Positions 2,006-20,302 of a stretch of 22,751 bases of DNA are shown here, in pieces. The stretch comes from a virus, in the IMG/VR virus record IMGVR_UViG_3300044624_002111, positions 1 to 22,751 of that record; one strand, written 5' to 3'. The number at the start of each line of letters is the position of its first letter. Within the stretch, counting starts at the first letter, position 1. The position numbers were made by a program, and so were the translations under genes. The notes under the pieces are model-generated. The model was not told where the DNA came from. It was given only the letters and a program-made list of their open reading frames with translations, and made no database searches.

Positions 2006-4443
2006 TGCTGCACCGCCCGGCCCTTGCCGGTGATCAGCCCGGTCCATTCCAGGCTCGAAAATTTGCAGGGATGCGCCGTGTCGTTTTCGATCGTGACCGC
2101 GATGTTCTCCCCCCGGCCGAACATCGGGATGCGGAACACCCCCTCTTGCCCCTGGTCCACACCCTGCAGCAGGCCCACAGTGCTGCCAGGAAAGGTGTAA
2201 ACCGCCTCATCGCGGTTGCCGGTGGGCTTAACCCGCACCTGGAAATAGCCGGTTTCGTGGTACCGCAGCCGGGCCTGGCGGATCTGTGCCCGCAGCGTGT
2301 TGCTGACCACTTGCCCGCCGCCCTGGGTCCGCATCGCCTTGAACCGCGATGGCCGGTAGCGGAACGGGTAGAGTTCTCCGAACCAAACCTGCGCTGCGGA
2401 CCAGTCGCCGCGGGCCGTGATTGTGTTGCCGCTGCTGGCAGCTCCCAGCAGCACCCCGCCCTGATAGCCCGGCTGATAGGCGGACCATGCCTGGGTCGCG
2501 GCTCTGATGGTGAACGGAAGGGTCCAGGTCGTCGCCCTGGTGACGGAGCTGTAGACGCCGGCCGGCACCCGCACACCAGCGGGGCTTGCGGCAGTGGTGC
2601 TCACCCAGCGATCAAGCAGCAGCGGGTACGGTGCCGCTGCGATCGACTGCCGATCGAGCACCGGCATCTTCTCCAGAAACACCTCCGGCCCGCGCTGGAC
2701 CAGGAGGTAGAGCGTCTCCTGGATCGCCAAGATCGACAGGATGCCGTCAGCACCAGGCAGCTCCCAGTAGCCCCAGCTGGACTGGGCACGCTCTACCCCG
2801 CTGCCACTGTTGCGGTACAGGAATTTGTACGTATAGATCCTGTTCGTGTAGCCCGCCTTGCTGCTGATGCAGTACAGCGAACTGCCCGTGTCGTTCGCCG
2901 CAAGCTGAAACACCCCAGACGGGATGTAGCTGCTTACGTGATCAGTAATGCTGTCAGCGTCGCCTACCAGCGCAGTGCCGGCGCCACGCACGGAGAACTG
3001 CCGCAGCTGGCTCCAGTCCCCGTTGGACTGGCAGAACACAACCGACCCGCCCATCTGGATTGGTCGCACTCCTGTGTCAATTTCATAGCTTGTGAGGATT
3101 GTAATTGCATCCGTCGCTGGCGTTAGCGCGGCATCAGTTGCATAGGATCTAAATTGATAATCATCGCTAAATAGCAACATCTCCCCCTGGAAGGGGACCG
3201 CATAGCGCAGCACGGAAACCTTCGAGCTGCTGGCGGTCTTATCGATCGGGTCCGAATCCAGAACCGTTGTCACGGTCTCCGGGAAGAACGCAAAGAAGTC
3301 CTTGACCCGGCTGTAGATGCGCTTCTCGTCCGCCAGGATCCCCAGCCGGCCCCGGTGCACAAAGATGTCGTTCACCGTTTGGCCAACGAAGCTCGGGTCC
3401 GGGGCCGATTCGCTGTCGCCGGCTGTCCGCTGCCCCCACGTCGGAAGCGTCAGGCCCGTCAACGCCGCACCGTTGAGGGGCCCGAAGTACCACGTTCCCG
3501 CCGGCAGCCGCACCAGCACCTGCGGCATGGTGGCGGGATCCAGCTTGTACCGAGTCCCCGGCGCCACGGTCTCCTCCCAGGCGCCCTCGCCAAAGGTGCC
3601 GGCGCCAGAGCGGGGCGCGAACTTCAGGTAATAGCCGTCGAAGTTGTTCGTCGGGTCGCCCGTCACCTCCACCTGGTAACCCTCTGGCGCAATCGCTGGC
3701 AGGCTGGTGAATGACTGCACCGAATTGGTGATCGCGGTGATGTCCGCGTTGGCCCGGGCATCGGTGGCGCTGATCGTGATTGTGCTCGCGCTGGTGAGGT
3801 GCAGCACCGATCCAGCTCGGGCGATCGAGACACCAGCCACGCCGGCCAGGGCCGCCTTGATCTGCTCGGCGATGTCTGCCGTGCTGATCGCCGTGCCGGC
3901 CGTCGTCGTCGTCGTCACCGTGGCCAAGGTGCCGTTCACGTTCACCCGGTAGGACTGGCCGTAATTGGCGGCCTTCACCCACACCAGGGCTTCATTGGCC
4001 GCCGGCCTGGCCACAGCGGGGGCCACCGCCGCGTCCATCGCGACCACCTTCAGCGAGCTGGCCACGAACGTGAAGTCGGCCACGGTGCCGCACCGGACCT
4101 GCCGCTTGGCGTCCGTCACGCCAGAGAGGTAGCCGTAGCCACTGGGGGCGCTGACGGTCTGCGCCACGCCGTCGAGATCGAACACCTTCACGGTGCTGCT
4201 GCTGATCACCGCCAGATAGCGCTCGCTGCGGTCGCGGAGGATCGCGTGAACGAACACGTCGCCCAGGCTGGTGGAGCTGACCCTGGCCAGGGTTTGCGTG
4301 GGATCCCGCTTGCGCAGGCCCTCGGCGCTGCTGCTGACCGCGTTGATCTGCAGCTCCGCCTGGGTGGGATCCCGCTGCGCGTCCGGTTGCTGGCTGACAC
4401 CCTGGATCAGGTTTGGGACCAGGGATGTGAAGAGTTCGGCCAT
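2002..4443 (-). CDS. Tail tubular protein B, T7 gp12-like (nozzle)
   Basis: The 813-residue product is close to T7 gp12 (794 residues), which forms the nozzle of the short tail. It begins MAELFTSLVPNLIQGVSQQPDAQR, and LIQGVSQQP is characteristic of this family. Residues about 150-250 form a Thr/Ala/Val-rich beta domain (with a run of five Thr encoded by a GTC-type triplet run near 3901-3915), followed by the GYYLKF and RLPAGTWYFGPLNG segments. The start ATG at 4443 overlaps the tail tube A stop by one base, and the stop overlaps the gp13-like start. The gene belongs to the late structural operon. Confidence is high from length, the N-terminal motif and synteny. Confidence 0.93.
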   Translation of the reverse strand: MAELFTSLVPNLIQGVSQQPDAQRDPTQAELQINAVSSSAEGLRKRDPTQTLARVSSTSLGDVFVHAILRDRSERYLAVISSSTVKVFDLDGVAQTVSAPSGYGYLSGVTDAKRQVRCGTVADFTFVASSLKVVAMDAAVAPAVARPAANEALVWVKAANYGQSYRVNVNGTLATVTTTTTAGTAISTADIAEQIKAALAGVAGVSIARAGSVLHLTSASTITISATDARANADITAITNSVQSFTSLPAIAPEGYQVEVTGDPTNNFDGYYLKFAPRSGAGTFGEGAWEETVAPGTRYKLDPATMPQVLVRLPAGTWYFGPLNGAALTGLTLPTWGQRTAGDSESAPDPSFVGQTVNDIFVHRGRLGILADEKRIYSRVKDFFAFFPETVTTVLDSDPIDKTASSSKVSVLRYAVPFQGEMLLFSDDYQFRSYATDAALTPATDAITILTSYEIDTGVRPIQMGGSVVFCQSNGDWSQLRQFSVRGAGTALVGDADSITDHVSSYIPSGVFQLAANDTGSSLYCISSKAGYTNRIYTYKFLYRNSGSGVERAQSSWGYWELPGADGILSILAIQETLYLLVQRGPEVFLEKMPVLDRQSIAAAPYPLLLDRWVSTTAASPAGVRVPAGVYSSVTRATTWTLPFTIRAATQAWSAYQPGYQGGVLLGAASSGNTITARGDWSAAQVWFGELYPFRYRPSRFKAMRTQGGGQVVSNTLRAQIRQARLRYHETGYFQVRVKPTGNRDEAVYTFPGSTVGLLQGVDQGQEGVFRIPMFGRGENIAVTIENDTAHPCKFSSLEWTGLITGKGRAVQQ

Positions 4444-5194: not shown

Positions 5195-6211
5195 TTAGGG
5201 GAGCACGATGCAGGCAGCGCATTCATCCCGCAGCCGGCCGATGCCGATCGATTGCGTGGCCACGCCAAGGGTGGACTGGTACATGATGTCGAAGTCGCCG
5301 TCCTTGCCGGTCATCTGGAACTTGGGGGCCCGCAGCGTGAGCATGCCGACTGCTTCCCGGCTGAAGACCAATGCCCGGCACTTGGTCAGGTCCTGAGCGT
5401 AGTCAAGGTTCTTGTCGAACGTGCTCAGCGTGTAAGCGGGCTGGATCACGTGGTTGGATTCATAAATAGGAATTCCTTTCACTCGGCCAACAGCGCCACT
5501 GGCAATGGTGCCGTTACTCTGGCCGCCGTTGAAGTCCGTGTTGATCACACGGGTCCCCTCGTTGAGGAAATCGTATTCATCGGGCGGCACTATGCAAACC
5601 AGCGAGGAAACGGGCACGTCCTTTTTCTTCATGGCGACCTTGATGTCGCCGAGGGCGGATGCCAACTCGTCGCCCTTGGCCTGCTTCGATGCGGCGGCAT
5701 AACCGGCCGTTAGGGTCTTCTTGAAGCCGATCCGGCCAGTGTTGATCGTTCGGGCCTGGGGTTCGACGGTGCTGTTGGCCGCTGCAAACAGGATGCGAGC
5801 GATGCGCTTGTCCCGCTCCCAGGCCAGAGCGATGCCCAGCTGCTCGAAGTATTCACTGCGCACATCGGCGTAATTCATTAGCTCGTCGAGGCTGAAGATC
5901 GCCTGGTCAGCGGCCATGAGGCCATCAACGGCGATCGTCTTGACGTTGGCGTCACTGGGGGAGTTGCCGCCCAGGCCACCCAGCAACGGCACGCCAGGCT
6001 GTACGTACGCCGCAGTGGCGCGGCCGGTGATCTGGAACTCAGCGGACTTGCCCCTCTTGATGTTCCGAGTCTTCACGAATCTCTCGAAGAGGCACTCACG
6101 CTTCATCGCGTTCAGAATCTCGGATTGCCCGAGGCTCTTGAACACTTCATCAACTGCGCCGGTTCCCCGGATCTGGCCAAGCCTGGCCAGCAAGGCATCG
6201 TTAATCGCCAT
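5195..6211 (-). CDS. Major capsid protein, T7 gp10A-like (HK97 fold)
   Basis: The 338-residue product is near the length of T7 gp10A (345). The protein has the usual Autographiviridae arrangement: an N-terminal arm (MAINDALLARLGQIRGTG), then FVKTRNIKRGKSAEFQITGRATAAY with the conserved gKS.qFp.tG-type segment. After that come FSLDELMNYADVRSEYFEQLG, an E-loop/spine-like region and a C-terminal beta region (KGIPIYESNHV). The start ATG at 6211 has no Shine-Dalgarno sequence and sits directly against one arm of an 8-bp inverted repeat (6212-6257). The gene is preceded by a 195-bp non-coding leader and followed by a strong terminator. I see no obvious slippery site for a gp10B-type frameshift product. 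Confidence 0.95.
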   Translation of the reverse strand: MAINDALLARLGQIRGTGAVDEVFKSLGQSEILNAMKRECLFERFVKTRNIKRGKSAEFQITGRATAAYVQPGVPLLGGLGGNSPSDANVKTIAVDGLMAADQAIFSLDELMNYADVRSEYFEQLGIALAWERDKRIARILFAAANSTVEPQARTINTGRIGFKKTLTAGYAAASKQAKGDELASALGDIKVAMKKKDVPVSSLVCIVPPDEYDFLNEGTRVINTDFNGGQSNGTIASGAVGRVKGIPIYESNHVIQPAYTLSTFDKNLDYAQDLTKCRALVFSREAVGMLTLRAPKFQMTGKDGDFDIMYQSTLGVATQSIGIGRLRDECAACIVLP

Positions 6212-15698: not shown

Positions 15699-15734
15699 AC
15701 TAGGGCATCCACTAGCGCCTGCGCTAGTCCCTAG
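15699..15734. promoter_or_regulatory. CTAG array B between RNA polymerase and ssDNA-binding protein genes
   Basis: CTAG occurs at 15700, 15712 and 15724, exactly 12 bp apart, with a fourth at 15731 that includes the RNA polymerase stop codon. The units on the plus strand are ACTAGGGCATCC, ACTAGCGCCTGC and GCTAGTCCCTAG. The second and third form a perfect inverted repeat ACTAGCGC-CT-GCGCTAGT (15711-15728). The array fills the 60-bp gap ahead of the gp2.5-like gene, where an operator or promoter would sit. A second array with the same spacing lies at 19780. Confidence 0.6.
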
Positions 15735-18151
15735 CTGAACAGATACGGGTTACTGCCGATCTCGCTGATCTCCAGCGCTCCCCGTGGCGGGGGTGGTGGC
15801 AGCGCCTTCAGCGTTGCGCCGCAACGGATCTCCTCGGCGATGGCCTCCAGCCAGTCGGTGGCATAGAGGGCCCGGAACTCGGCGAGCAAGGTCTTCTGCA
15901 ACCAGCTGGCGTTGGCTGGATCGGTGGCGAAACAGTCATGGTTGGTCAGCAATGGCACACCCTGCTCTCCAGCTCTGCAGGCCACGGCATGCACCAGGGC
16001 CGCATCGAAGCTATGGACCAGGTTGGCGGTGATGCTGCCGTTGGTTCGCCGGGCGCTCAGCTCCCCCTCCGGCGGGTCCTCCTCGAAGGTGACGGCCGCG
16101 AGCTTGCCGAGGAGGTGCGTGCGGATCTGGGACTTGCTGGGTGTCGGCCGGCCTACCTGCATGGGCCAGCCCATCGGCGTGGTCCACCTGATCTGTTGCT
16201 GGTGGTGGCCCACCACCTCCCTGCCCACATCGCAGAGCCAGCGGCGGAGCTGCATCAGGGATGCGGTTTCGGTGCCGAGCACCACCCGCAGCCTGGATTC
16301 CAGGTATCTGCTGGGCCGGTAGATCCGGCCTGCCCAGTCATCGACGGGGCCCAGCCGCTCCTGCAGCTGATCCCGGATGCCATCGGCCACGGTGCGGGAG
16401 GTGCTGCCGAACGGCGTGTGCATTACGGCGGCCTTCACCCAGCTGCGATCGATGCCAAGTTCCAGCCAGCCGGCGGCGAGCTGGTGGGTCCGCGCATCCC
16501 CGCAATGCAGATCGATCTCCAGCTGCTGCTGCAGTCGCTTCACCACAACGGAATAGAGGTCGTTCGGCCCGGTGCCGCAGACATTGCACAGCTCGGCCAT
16601 CGCTCGATCCCGGAGCAGGGTTGCGATAATCCCGGCGCCGGAGCAGGTTTGGTCCAGGCGGATGGGCACCCCGCTTGAGGGCCCGTCGATCGGTTCTGTC
16701 CAGCCCTTGGCCATTTGCAGAAACTGCCAGGGCTGCTTGGCCTCGCGCCACAGGTCGGCCCGGCCGATGGGATCCTTGGCGATGGCCTCCAGCCGCCTTA
16801 TTTCCTGTTCGCCCCACTGCAGCCGAGCGCTCCATTCGTGGCGCGTCAGCCCCCAGTGCCCTGCGGCAGCCTTCAGGATCCAGTCCAGTCCTTCGGCTCC
16901 AATGCTTTCCCCCCTTGAGCCAAACCGCAGCAGCGCCTTCTGGTGGTCGGGGCCCTGGTGCGTGAGGCCTCGGTTCGCGGTGAAGGCCCTGCCTCTGAAA
17001 TCGAGGAAGTGTGCCTGATAGATCGGCCGGCCCGCCAGCGCCTCGGCGGTCTGCAGGGCCCGCTCGATCGCCAGCCGCTTGGAGCTGTTGTCGCGCAGGT
17101 CTTGGTGGTGCCGAGCTTGGTCGCGCCGCCAGGCATCCTGCACATCTGGCGGTTCGGATGTGGGGAACGGCCCCGCATCGGGAACCGGATCCCGCTCGAC
17201 CGGGAACAGGCCGGGGATGTTCCGGTCCCACGCCTCCCGCTGAACCTGCAGCATCCACGGGTCCACCTCCAGCTGCTGCCGCTGCAAAACGTTGACGGCT
17301 GCCAGCTGCGGACCGATCCGGCCCGACAGGTAGCTGATCGCCGCGTGGTCGCGCGCCGCCCGGATCTGCACCACCGGGGATGTATTGGCCAGGTGGCCAC
17401 CGCCTACCAGTCCCTCCCAAGGGATTGGCTCGATCACCATCGGCCCCCGGTTCGGCTGGAGACTGCGGGGAGGGTGGCGCCGGATGAAGTCCAGGGCCTT
17501 GGTTGATGGCAGTACCCGCCAGTGGGCGCGCCGGTTGGGCTGATCGCTCTTGTCGATAATCACCAGCCCGGTTTCCCGCCGCACCACTTCGAGCAGCAAC
17601 AGCCCCACGGTGGCCCGCTCAATCCGGCTCCAGATCGGGCTGGATCCCTCGATGGGCCGGGCGGCGATCGCCATTACCGCCTTTCGCTTCTCTGCTGTGG
17701 TCCGGTCGAGCAGTCGATCCAGGCTGGCCGGGGATCGCCGGCCGATCTCACCCGCTTTCACCTCGGCATCCACGGCCACACCGATGGACAGGGCCAGCCC
17801 TTGGAAGCTGACGGCATGGGAGAGGCGATCAAGGATCGTGACCAGGGCCACCGCCGCGACGCGTTGCGGGCTGCCGAGGGCGGCCACCAGCGGCAGGGCC
17901 CCATAACCAGGGCCGCCCAGCTGGGGGTTATCGCCCCAGCGGTAGAGGATCGCCTCGATCTCCCGGCTGACGGGATCAGCGAACTGCTGGAACAGGGCGG
18001 TTCCGTATTCGGTGCAGCTCTCGCGCCGATACCGGCGAAGCACCTCCCGCATCACCTTTGCTCGCTGCTCAGCGTTGGTGGCCTCCTGCCATTCCAGCCG
18101 CTGCTGAAGGTCCCTGTCCACCGTGGTGGATTTGCCGCTTGGCGGATTCAT
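15731..18151 (-). CDS. Single-subunit DNA-dependent RNA polymerase, T7 gp1-like, with Phe at the T7 Tyr639 position
   Basis: The 806-residue product (T7: 883) has the full palm-finger core. DFRGR is at 384-388. Motif A is RLDQTCSG with catalytic D500 (T7 D537). Motif B is DRSWVKAAVMHTPFGS, with R569 and K573 matching T7 R627 and K631. NLVHSFD has H713 (T7 H784), and motif C TNHDCFATDP has D739 (T7 D812). The C-terminal foot ends NPYLFS, as expected for the family. Position 581, aligned without gaps to T7 Y639, is Phe (codon 16411-16409). The N-terminal domain is shorter than in T7 and cannot be aligned by eye. The enzyme should transcribe the late phage genes. The gene follows the attP region, and its 89-base leader has no Shine-Dalgarno sequence. 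Confidence 0.96.
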   Translation of the reverse strand: MNPPSGKSTTVDRDLQQRLEWQEATNAEQRAKVMREVLRRYRRESCTEYGTALFQQFADPVSREIEAILYRWGDNPQLGGPGYGALPLVAALGSPQRVAAVALVTILDRLSHAVSFQGLALSIGVAVDAEVKAGEIGRRSPASLDRLLDRTTAEKRKAVMAIAARPIEGSSPIWSRIERATVGLLLLEVVRRETGLVIIDKSDQPNRRAHWRVLPSTKALDFIRRHPPRSLQPNRGPMVIEPIPWEGLVGGGHLANTSPVVQIRAARDHAAISYLSGRIGPQLAAVNVLQRQQLEVDPWMLQVQREAWDRNIPGLFPVERDPVPDAGPFPTSEPPDVQDAWRRDQARHHQDLRDNSSKRLAIERALQTAEALAGRPIYQAHFLDFRGRAFTANRGLTHQGPDHQKALLRFGSRGESIGAEGLDWILKAAAGHWGLTRHEWSARLQWGEQEIRRLEAIAKDPIGRADLWREAKQPWQFLQMAKGWTEPIDGPSSGVPIRLDQTCSGAGIIATLLRDRAMAELCNVCGTGPNDLYSVVVKRLQQQLEIDLHCGDARTHQLAAGWLELGIDRSWVKAAVMHTPFGSTSRTVADGIRDQLQERLGPVDDWAGRIYRPSRYLESRLRVVLGTETASLMQLRRWLCDVGREVVGHHQQQIRWTTPMGWPMQVGRPTPSKSQIRTHLLGKLAAVTFEEDPPEGELSARRTNGSITANLVHSFDAALVHAVACRAGEQGVPLLTNHDCFATDPANASWLQKTLLAEFRALYATDWLEAIAEEIRCGATLKALPPPPPRGALEISEIGSNPYLFS

Positions 18152-18256: not shown

Positions 18257-18306
18257 GTGGACAGCGGATTTTAAGTCCGCTGCGTATGCCATTCCGCCAT
18301 GCCCCC
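18257..18306 (-). other. 5' half of tRNA-Leu(UAA), putative attP core
   Basis: Reading the minus strand from 18306 one finds the acceptor 5' strand (GGGGGCA), U8-G9, a D arm (GCG/CGC stem, loop with GGC), and a perfect anticodon arm: stem GCGGA/TCCGC with loop CTTAAAA, anticodon TAA at 18273-18271. No variable arm, T arm (no TTCRA loop) or 3' acceptor strand (TGCCCCC) follows, so it is not a complete tRNA gene. It lies 125 bases downstream of the integrase gene. In cyanophage P-SSP7 a tRNA-Leu match directly downstream of int was proposed as the attachment site. Confidence 0.75.
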
Positions 18307-18323
18307 GGTCAGTCCTGGCCTGG

Positions 18324-18400
18324 GTTCTCGGGTTTTCGGCTGCTGCTTCTGCTGCTTGGAAAAGCAGCAATTCGGCAGCAAAAAACGGCAACCAGAGAAC
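18324..18400. repeat. Long interrupted inverted repeat between integrase and attP
   Basis: A perfect inner stem TGCTGCTT/AAGCAGCA (18350-18357 with 18362-18369, loop GGAA) is nested inside further matching arms: GCTGC/GCAGC, TTTT/AAAA and outer GTTCTC/GAGAAC (18324-18329 with 18395-18400). No T-run follows the stem on the minus strand. It could be a processing hairpin for int mRNA, or a set of arm-type or accessory sites for the recombinase. Confidence 0.55.
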
Positions 18401-18430
18401 GGGTGGACGCATCCACAGTACGGGATCCCA

Positions 18431-19438
18431 TCACCCGGCCTCCAGTGCTTCCACGCATGCCGAGAGGGCATCGGTGGAGAGGTGCAGGTAGCGCTTCACG
18501 GCAGCCGGCGAGGTCCAGCCCCCGAAATTCATTAGCACCGCCAGGCTGATTCCTTTGGTGGCCAGCTTTGAGGCGCAGGTGTGGCGGGTGGTGTGGATCG
18601 TGAAGGCTTGATCGTGGGCCAGGCCCAGGTGCTCCTTGGCTCGATCGAAAAGGCCCCTAAAGCGGTCGTAGCTGTAGGGGAAGACCCGGGCGTTTGGCAC
18701 CGGCACGCCGCAGGCCTTCAGCGCATCGAGGGCCCGTCTGGTCAGCGGCACGGTGCGTGGGTTTTTGTTCTTTGTTTTCCAGAAGGTCACCCGGCACAGC
18801 TGGAAGTCCACGTCGCTCCAGCGCAACCGCTCTACCTCCCCGAACCGGGTGCAAGTTTCCAGTAGGAACACCAGCACCAGGGCCGCGGCGGGCTCCCCGA
18901 TCGCATGAAAGTATTCACACAGCCCGTCCCGCTCGCGGTCGCTCATCACTCGATCCTTTTCGTTGACCTCCTTGATCTGCTTGGGCATCGCCGGCCGGGT
19001 TGTGATGCGGCCATGCAGTTGGGCATCGCTGAACATCGCCTTCAGGGCGGAGAGCTTCCGGTTGATGGTGGCCGGCCGGTTGCCCTGGCTCCTGAGCCTG
19101 CCCCGCCACTGCTCCACCGCTGTGGCGTTGATCGATTCGAGCGGTGTCGAGGGGCCGAAGAACTGCACCGCCGCAGCGCTGTAGATGGCGGCCGTTCGCT
19201 CATAGGGCAGCCCAGCCCAGCGAACCTCAAGCGATAGCTGCCGGGCCTGCGCCAGGGTGAAGCCCGCGGCGTTCACCACGGGTTCGGCCATCAGGTGGTC
19301 CCGCAGCTCTTTCCGCTTCCGCTCGGCCTCGGCCTTGGTGCGGCCGGAGGCCTGCCGCCGTTTGCCGTCAACAGTGACATCAGCGATCCAGCGGGCCTGG
19401 CCGCTGGCATCGATTCGTTTCCGAACTGCTCCGGTCAT
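18431..19438 (-). CDS. int: Tyrosine-type site-specific integrase
   Basis: The 335-residue product has three parts. An AP2-like arm-binding N-terminus comes first (about 1-50: RKRIDASGQARWIADVTVDG). A SAM-like core-binding domain follows at about 60-155. The catalytic domain is at about 160-335, with R198 (ETCTRFGEVERLRW), K223 (KTKNKNPRTVPL), H282-x-x-R285 (IHTTRHTCAS), W308 (GGWTS, in place of the second His) and nucleophile Y317 (VKRYLHL). All key residues are present, so it should be active. Its ATG at 19438 lies 21 bases after the MarR-like stop and is preceded by a C-rich leader motif instead of a Shine-Dalgarno sequence. The tRNA-Leu half downstream is the likely attP. No excisionase is recognised. 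Confidence 0.95.
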   Translation of the reverse strand: MTGAVRKRIDASGQARWIADVTVDGKRRQASGRTKAEAERKRKELRDHLMAEPVVNAAGFTLAQARQLSLEVRWAGLPYERTAAIYSAAAVQFFGPSTPLESINATAVEQWRGRLRSQGNRPATINRKLSALKAMFSDAQLHGRITTRPAMPKQIKEVNEKDRVMSDRERDGLCEYFHAIGEPAAALVLVFLLETCTRFGEVERLRWSDVDFQLCRVTFWKTKNKNPRTVPLTRRALDALKACGVPVPNARVFPYSYDRFRGLFDRAKEHLGLAHDQAFTIHTTRHTCASKLATKGISLAVLMNFGGWTSPAAVKRYLHLSTDALSACVEALEAG

Positions 19439-19459: not shown

Positions 19460-19777
19460 TCACAGGCTCTTGATCTGGCGCAGGAGGGCCCGCCCCCGAC
19501 TCGAGAGTGAGCACAGGTAACGGCGCCGCTCCTCGGGGTCCTTTTCGACCTTGAGCAGGCGGAGCCCCTCTCGCCCGGTCCTGTGAACGTCGCTGAGGGC
19601 ATTCACAGTCCGGGACACAGACGCATTGGATAGACCCAGGGTCCGTTCAATGTCGTCGTAGAGAATGGGCTCTTTTTGCGCGACTACTAGGAACACCTGG
19701 ACGTGGTGGAGCGGGAGCGCGGTCGGCTCCAGAACTGAGAAAGCGGCCAGAGCGGCTTCAAGTTTGCCCAGATCCAT
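19460..19777 (-). CDS. Winged-helix MarR-like transcriptional regulator
   Basis: A compact 105-residue protein. Helix 1-2 (LPLHHVQVFLVVAQKEPILY) is followed by the helix-turn-helix YDDIERTLGLSNASVSRTVN, a wing LRLLKVEKDPEERRRYLCSL and a final helix SSRGRALLRQIKSL. This is the MarR order without the long dimerisation helices, as in other small phage regulators. It lies directly upstream of int, and three CTAG repeats at 12-bp spacing abut its start codon, so autoregulation is plausible. Candidate roles are lysogeny repressor, control of int or directionality control; the sequence does not decide. Confidence 0.82.
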   Translation of the reverse strand: MDLGKLEAALAAFSVLEPTALPLHHVQVFLVVAQKEPILYDDIERTLGLSNASVSRTVNALSDVHRTGREGLRLLKVEKDPEERRRYLCSLSSRGRALLRQIKSL

Positions 19778-19879: not shown

Positions 19880-20302
19880 TTACGGGTCGGTACCTCGATC
19901 GAGAGAATTAGGGTTCTGGTTTCCATGATTAGGCCTGGTTTGCAGGGGTGGAGTTGCCCCCCCTAGAAGCTCTTCAGCCTCTGGTGTCAGGGCCAGGAGG
20001 TAGCCGCGGCGGTGCGGGTGCCGGCGGGTCTTGATCAGCTGGAAGGGGGCCGGCACCCATTTCCCGGCCGCCATCCGATCCCGGCCACGCAGGGCCGAGA
20101 GGATGCGATTGGTGCTGGCCGTGGCCTGGGGGCGCCCCGGCTGCCCCATGGCCGTGCCGAGGTCCTTGGTGTTGTCCACGCCGGCAGCGACCCACAGCAG
20201 GGCCTCCACGGTGGCAATCGTCACCCGACCGCACCCGACGGTTTCGATCGCCGACATCCTCAGCCGGTGCAGCATCTCGGCCTGGTGCTGGTAATGGTTC
20301 AT
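19880..20302 (-). CDS. Winged-helix DNA-binding protein
   Basis: The 140-residue product starts MNHYQHQAEMLHRLRMSAIE at ATG 20302, which overlaps the upstream stop (ATGA) and has GAGGAG nine bases upstream. A winged-helix domain spans about 25-115: VTIATVEALLWVAAGVDNTK, a turn and recognition helix in LGTAMG...ATASTNRILSAL, and a wing LIKTRRHPHRRGYLLALTPEAEELL. The last 25 residues are Pro/Asn-rich and probably disordered. It precedes the smaller MarR-like gene by a 102-base gap that holds the CTAG array. Two different winged-helix proteins in a row recall repressor/antirepressor switches, without proof. Confidence 0.75.
   Translation of the reverse strand: MNHYQHQAEMLHRLRMSAIETVGCGRVTIATVEALLWVAAGVDNTKDLGTAMGQPGRPQATASTNRILSALRGRDRMAAGKWVPAPFQLIKTRRHPHRRGYLLALTPEAEELLGGATPPLQTRPNHGNQNPNSLDRGTDP

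Follow-up and report, generated by a model that had tools for sequence, protein, structure and literature searches.

The marine T7-like cyanophages carry attP sites consisting of 39-bp motifs that match the first half of tRNA-Leu, and perfect matches to the host tRNA have been reported (PMC8776855). Integration of P-SSP7 and S-TIP37 at tRNA-Leu has been seen by PCR and needs both the integrase gene (int) and attP, with no stable lysogens obtained (PMC8776855). In this marine module (P-SSP7, P-SSP2, S-TIP37, and S-CBP1; PMC8776855) the order is marR-int-attP-RNAP, and the tRNA-Leu 5' half extends from base 1 of the tRNA to the anticodon loop; for S-TIP37, the annotation of the first gene goes no further than a DNA-binding domain protein. 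The P-SSP7 site as read here, GGGAGTGTGGCGGAATTGGTAGACGCGCCGGACTTAAAA, is such a 5' half. Among genomic islands in general this geometry is uncommon, as the Islander collection of 3919 islands has 159 with a 5' fragment versus 3760 with a 3' fragment, or about 4% (PMC4383910). The closest described freshwater phage is Synechococcus phage S-SRP02 (MW822601; PMC8790148), for which the available sections of that paper report no attP. In the tRNA-dependent lysogeny of mycobacteriophages (PMC10865867), the integrase also targets a tRNA whose function must be spared.

The DNA analyzed here (the window) is a virus record of 22,751 bases representing part of a genome. On its minus strand, the 45 nucleotides at 18306→18262, GGGGGCATGGCGGAATGGCATACGCAGCGGACTTAAAATCCGCTG, are the 5' half of a cyanobacterial tRNA-Leu(UAA). 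The first letter is base 1 of the tRNA, and the acceptor 5' strand, the D arm, and the full anticodon arm follow. The T arm and 3' acceptor strand are absent, and past TCCGCTG the DNA is unrelated to a tRNA. Neither ARAGORN nor Rfam called a tRNA anywhere in the window, and thus the half is not a complete tRNA gene. The initial annotation had described this same anatomy and had assigned it to 18257-18430; the fragment is real, but it is shorter and lies on the minus strand, and the remainder of that span is intergenic DNA.

The half sits in a 279-bp gap between the stop of int at 18431 and the start of the RNA polymerase gene (RNAP) at 18151, with everything on the minus strand. The integrase (18431..19438, 335 amino acids; Phage_integrase PF00589, E value of 5.9e-22; phrog_1) has an intact frame, as judged by its family match, and a MarR-like regulator (19460..19777, phrog_9665) lies directly upstream of it. 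On the other side of the half is a T7-like RNA polymerase (15731..18151; phrog_414, E value of 2.4e-131; PF00940), and so the window has the polymerase of a T7-like phage adjoining int. Other genes in the window encode a head-tail adaptor (phrog_449), a gp10-like major capsid protein (PF21703), an exonuclease, a Holliday junction resolvase, and an ssDNA-binding protein. An open reading frame of 140 amino acids upstream of the MarR-like gene (19880-20302, minus strand) had no match in Pfam or PHROGs; similar frames occur at two related loci (L009 and L114).

The marR-int-attP-RNAP order is common to the window, S-SRP02, P-SSP7, and a phage contig from a cyanobacterial genome described below (G344:C17). 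The parallel with P-SSP7 drawn in the initial annotation is therefore borne out, since the P-SSP7 site is also a tRNA-Leu 5' half. However, the window differs from the marine module in its integrase, which is 25% identical to that of P-SSP7 and falls in a separate clade of the int tree, and in that the terminator-like hairpin seen between attP and RNAP at the marine-type sites was not found here. S-TIP37, S-CBP1, and S-SRP01 further differ in carrying a different tRNA-Leu, with the loop TTTCAGG. The closest isolate integrase is that of S-SRP02 (56.5% identity), which shares the lineage, the gene order, and a tRNA-Leu(UAA) 5' half before RNAP but has a KilA-N gene and two small genes between int and attP. 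By its closest isolate integrase and gene order, the window belongs to this S-SRP02-type freshwater cyanopodovirus lineage; no phage records close to it in DNA were found.

The site is not a conventional 3'-half tRNA attP, as both the T arm and the 3' acceptor are missing, and it does not belong with the P-SSP7/S-TIP37 integrase subfamily. The initial annotation was right about the geometry, which is no anomaly of this phage, as it had already been published for T7-like cyanophages. Given the marine precedent (PMC8776855) and the 5' fragments in Islander, the window is a freshwater example and not a new kind of system. Islands with 5' tDNA fragments and pTN3-like archaeal integrases likewise have a crossover inside the tRNA and take the 5' part from the element, but they are integrated or archaeal, whereas the window holds a free phage attP. 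In the mycobacteriophages, in turn, a complete phage tRNA complements the target, whereas here the tRNA would be rebuilt from halves.

Host genomes were reached with a psbA query, and 350 Cyanobiaceae genomes formed the comparison set. The half of the host tRNA-Leu(UAA) is typically GGGGGCATGGCGGAATTGGTAGACGCAGCGGACTTAAAATCCG, with small variants; 141 of the 350 genomes match at three mismatches or fewer, some of these matches being tRNA-Leu(CAA). The half in the window has one T fewer in the D loop than usual, and this short D loop, GGAATGG, occurs in tRNA-Leu of only three genomes (G344, G192, and G268). When three mismatches were allowed, a 42-mer of the window half had only four sites in the 350 genomes, namely, three tRNA-Leu genes and one phage attP, and reversed-pattern controls gave none, which rules out chance similarity to tRNA-Leu. 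An exact-pattern scan of viral contigs for the half found no match, and neither did a degenerate-pattern scan of genome contigs, because the hosts carry GGTAGACGC and not GGCANACGC. An extra tRNA-Leu copy in genome G330 was considered as an att pair and rejected, as it consists of two whole genes. The cyanobacterial tRNA-Leu(UAA) sharing the stretch that the initial annotation had called for, with the host-derived attP core it proposed, was thus found.

Aligned from base 1 exactly, the half differs from the tRNA-Leu(UAA) of G344 by two substitutions over tRNA bases 1 to 43 (T to C and G to T), both at D-loop positions, and identity ends at the start of the variable arm. G344 is the best host found, and its imperfect match contrasts with the perfect ones reported for marine sites; the true host strain may differ. 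Joined in silico, the phage 5' half and the G344 3' half give a normal tRNA-Leu(taa); attP alone does not fold in this way. G344 also contains a phage contig of 44.8 kb (C17) whose main aligned stretches are 83 to 94% identical to the window (about 90% in the long ones), with an integrase 95% identical in protein and an identical placement of attP between int and RNAP. The shared short D loop and this related phage with the same attP make G344-like picocyanobacteria the likely hosts of the window phage. G344 has an intact tRNA-Leu gene, and no host DNA adjoins its phage contig. In the genome and viral contigs covered here, the attL and attR junctions that the initial annotation had proposed looking for were not found for the window phage or its nearest relatives.

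A tRNA-Leu half occurs at the equivalent position in 12 of 15 related integrase loci. Across six divergent loci, mean identity was 92% over bases 1 to 15 and 94% over the last 22 bases up to the end of the loop, compared with 44% and 63% upstream, 70% in the 3' strand of the anticodon stem, and 63% and 48% farther downstream. This difference between the half and its flanks indicates that the constrained piece is the 5' part of the tRNA up to the anticodon loop. Such constraint would be expected if recombination took place in the loop and the phage had to supply a working 5' half.

The site very probably serves as attP in a freshwater cyanophage of the T7-like kind (Autographiviridae) that infects picocyanobacteria and would use it to integrate into and rebuild tRNA-Leu(UAA). 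The integrase would recombine the attP core, CTTAAAA flanked by the stem strands, with the identical core in the host gene. On the int side of this presumed crossover, the attP has tRNA sequence running from base 1 through the anticodon arm; the int-side junction would then join the phage 5' half to the host 3' half and so yield a complete tRNA-Leu preceded by phage DNA. At the other junction, the host tRNA promoter and host 5' half would lead into the phage RNA polymerase gene.

Several elements of the site can be assigned putative roles in this scheme. The anticodon loop itself (CTTAAAA, 18269..18275, minus strand) is the likely 7-bp overlap region, as identity among the phage half-sites holds to the loop and then decays and identity with P-SSP7 stops there; anticodon-loop overlaps are well documented among tyrosine recombinases (PMC8371274). 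The 3' strand of the anticodon stem, TCCGCTG (18262..18268, minus strand), is an inverted repeat of CAGCGGA and may be a second core-type integrase site; its conservation in relatives is below that of the 5' half. Directly upstream of the half is a phage leader, CCGAAAACCCGAGAACCCAGGCCAGGACTGACC (18307..18339, minus strand), which differs from the host leader and is related to CTGARATCCCTT of other attPs; it is a candidate integrase arm site or tRNA leader. A near-palindrome right after int, GTGGATGCGTCCACC (18402..18416, minus strand), is a candidate arm-type site, and ATGCRTCCACC from this region is found again close to int in some relatives. A k-mer search for arm-type sites returned weak shared motifs only.

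Several points count against this explanation: no attL or attR turned up, the tRNA-Leu gene of G344 is intact and free of phage DNA, the match to the best host is imperfect, and no sigma70-like promoter that could transcribe the rebuilt tRNA was found upstream of the half in the window. P-SSP7 has TTGTTA-16-TATAAT at the corresponding position. On the other side of the core, a terminator-like hairpin was present about 30 to 40 nucleotides after attP and before RNAP in all five marine-type phages examined (L017, 5898-6038; L158; L159; L160; L162), some shuffled control sequences also matching in the case of S-TIP37. The same scan detected none in 11 loci of the window's clade, although rho-dependent or GC-rich terminators would escape it. 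This pattern suggests that the RNA polymerase gene is insulated in the marine-type phages but not in the window's clade.

It is improbable that the half is instead a decaying relic of tRNA capture, either a fossil attP or a piece of captured tRNA that has ceased to function. The two substitutions relative to the best host, the mismatched 3' stem strand in some relatives (L004-L006, L012, and L013), and the absence of stable lysogens in work on the marine cousins (PMC8776855) would fit such a relic. However, the 5' half is much better conserved than its flanks, the substitutions are confined to the D loop and leave a hybrid that still folds as a tRNA, the length of the D loop follows a host lineage, and the integrase frame is intact.

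We consider it highly improbable that the phage expresses the half as a tRNA gene of its own, divergent or split, as no tRNA is called in the window and no 3' half follows TCCGCTG, in agreement with what the initial annotation had argued, even though a whole tRNA occupies this place in L009 and S31-C1 (tRNA-Met) and in YIMV22061 (tRNA-Leu). There is just as little to recommend the reading that the contig is not free phage DNA but a prophage or an attL/attR junction. Some members of the clade do seem to integrate in their hosts, and in one (L115) int lies beside host aroQ, tRNA-Tyr, and tRNA-Thr, but in the window the half has phage genes on both sides in the order of phage genomes, with no host flank; the unintegrated configuration proposed in the initial annotation therefore stands.

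A Prochlorococcus-type genome contains a locus (L153; G189:C25, 5000-15220) with two tRNA-Leu 5' halves, at 5716 and 6740, 1,024 bp apart. The first has the native upstream sequence seen in relatives and is cut after the loop (AAAATCTCAATG); about 1 kb that is absent from the other loci compared follows, and then a complete tRNA-Leu. The leader of the complete copy, CTGAGATCCCTT, resembles attP leaders (L012, L014, and P-SSP7) and is unlike host leaders. This locus is probably the scar of a 5'-half integration from which most of the phage was then lost, and it speaks for the attP reading given above.

Within the window's clade, Leu 5' halves are found in the window, L002-L006, L008, L010-L015, and the G344 phage. 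In two Cyanobiaceae genomes, a related integrase gene is followed downstream by the 5' half of tRNA-Met(CAU) (L116, around 3762-3720 on the minus strand; L117, 1859-1900), an apparent target switch between Leu and Met, and the integrases of L008 and L009, which are close in the tree, likewise appear to use different tRNAs (Leu and Met, respectively). In L009, a complete tRNA-Met lies between int and RNAP (5234-5306), with a second CTCATAAT core at about 5465. S31-C1 (L163), outside the 22-row clade, likewise has a complete tRNA-Met ahead of RNAP, there overlapping the end of int (3504-3576), followed by a second CTCATAAT core. These whole tRNA-Met genes may represent tRNA-dependent lysogeny in cyanophage-like podoviruses. 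In the Limnohabitans phage YIMV22061 (L169), the DNA between int and RNAP contains a full tRNA-Leu(TAA) gene in antisense orientation (3743-3831), with extra GACTTAAA cores beside it at about 3721-3736. S-SRP02-type integrases also lie beside intact host tRNA-Thr(GGT) genes in L115 (G197:C71, 6814-8717), where host aroQ and tRNA-Tyr also adjoin int, and in L114 (G002:C123, 3440-4896). Both have the appearance of genuine junctions of integrated prophages or elements at a conventional tRNA 3' end in Cyanobiaceae genomes, which would imply a 3'-half attP. In ProddE, outside the clade, a 3' half is antisense to int. In the half-sites, the Thr junctions, and ProddE alike, the rescuing part lies on the side of the loop that faces int.

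The tRNA-sparing mode may have switched repeatedly within one clade (sense 5' half of Leu or Met, whole Met, and antisense 3' end of Thr), with the rescuing part on the int side where readable. Integration in the sense form would put RNAP downstream of the host tRNA promoter, no terminator having been found in this clade, and could drive the lytic program from the integrated state and so make integration transient. We put this forward tentatively, as a reading more doubtful than probable; in the int tree, branches beyond the window's clade are long and forks within it remain open, leaving the number and order of target switches uncertain.

What is new here is a distant integrase clade with varying apparent targets and modes of rescue (Leu 5' half, Met 5' half, whole Met, and tRNA-Thr 3'-end junctions). 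The tRNA-Leu integration module of the marine T7-like cyanophages is extended to a freshwater lineage, and an uncultured freshwater virus is tied to a picocyanobacterial host lineage through a variable tRNA position. The apparent tRNA-Thr junctions suggest that some viruses or elements of the clade seem to stay integrated in Cyanobiaceae. Comparison of the Leu, Met, and Thr forms could show how a tyrosine integrase changes its target and which half of the tRNA must be carried.
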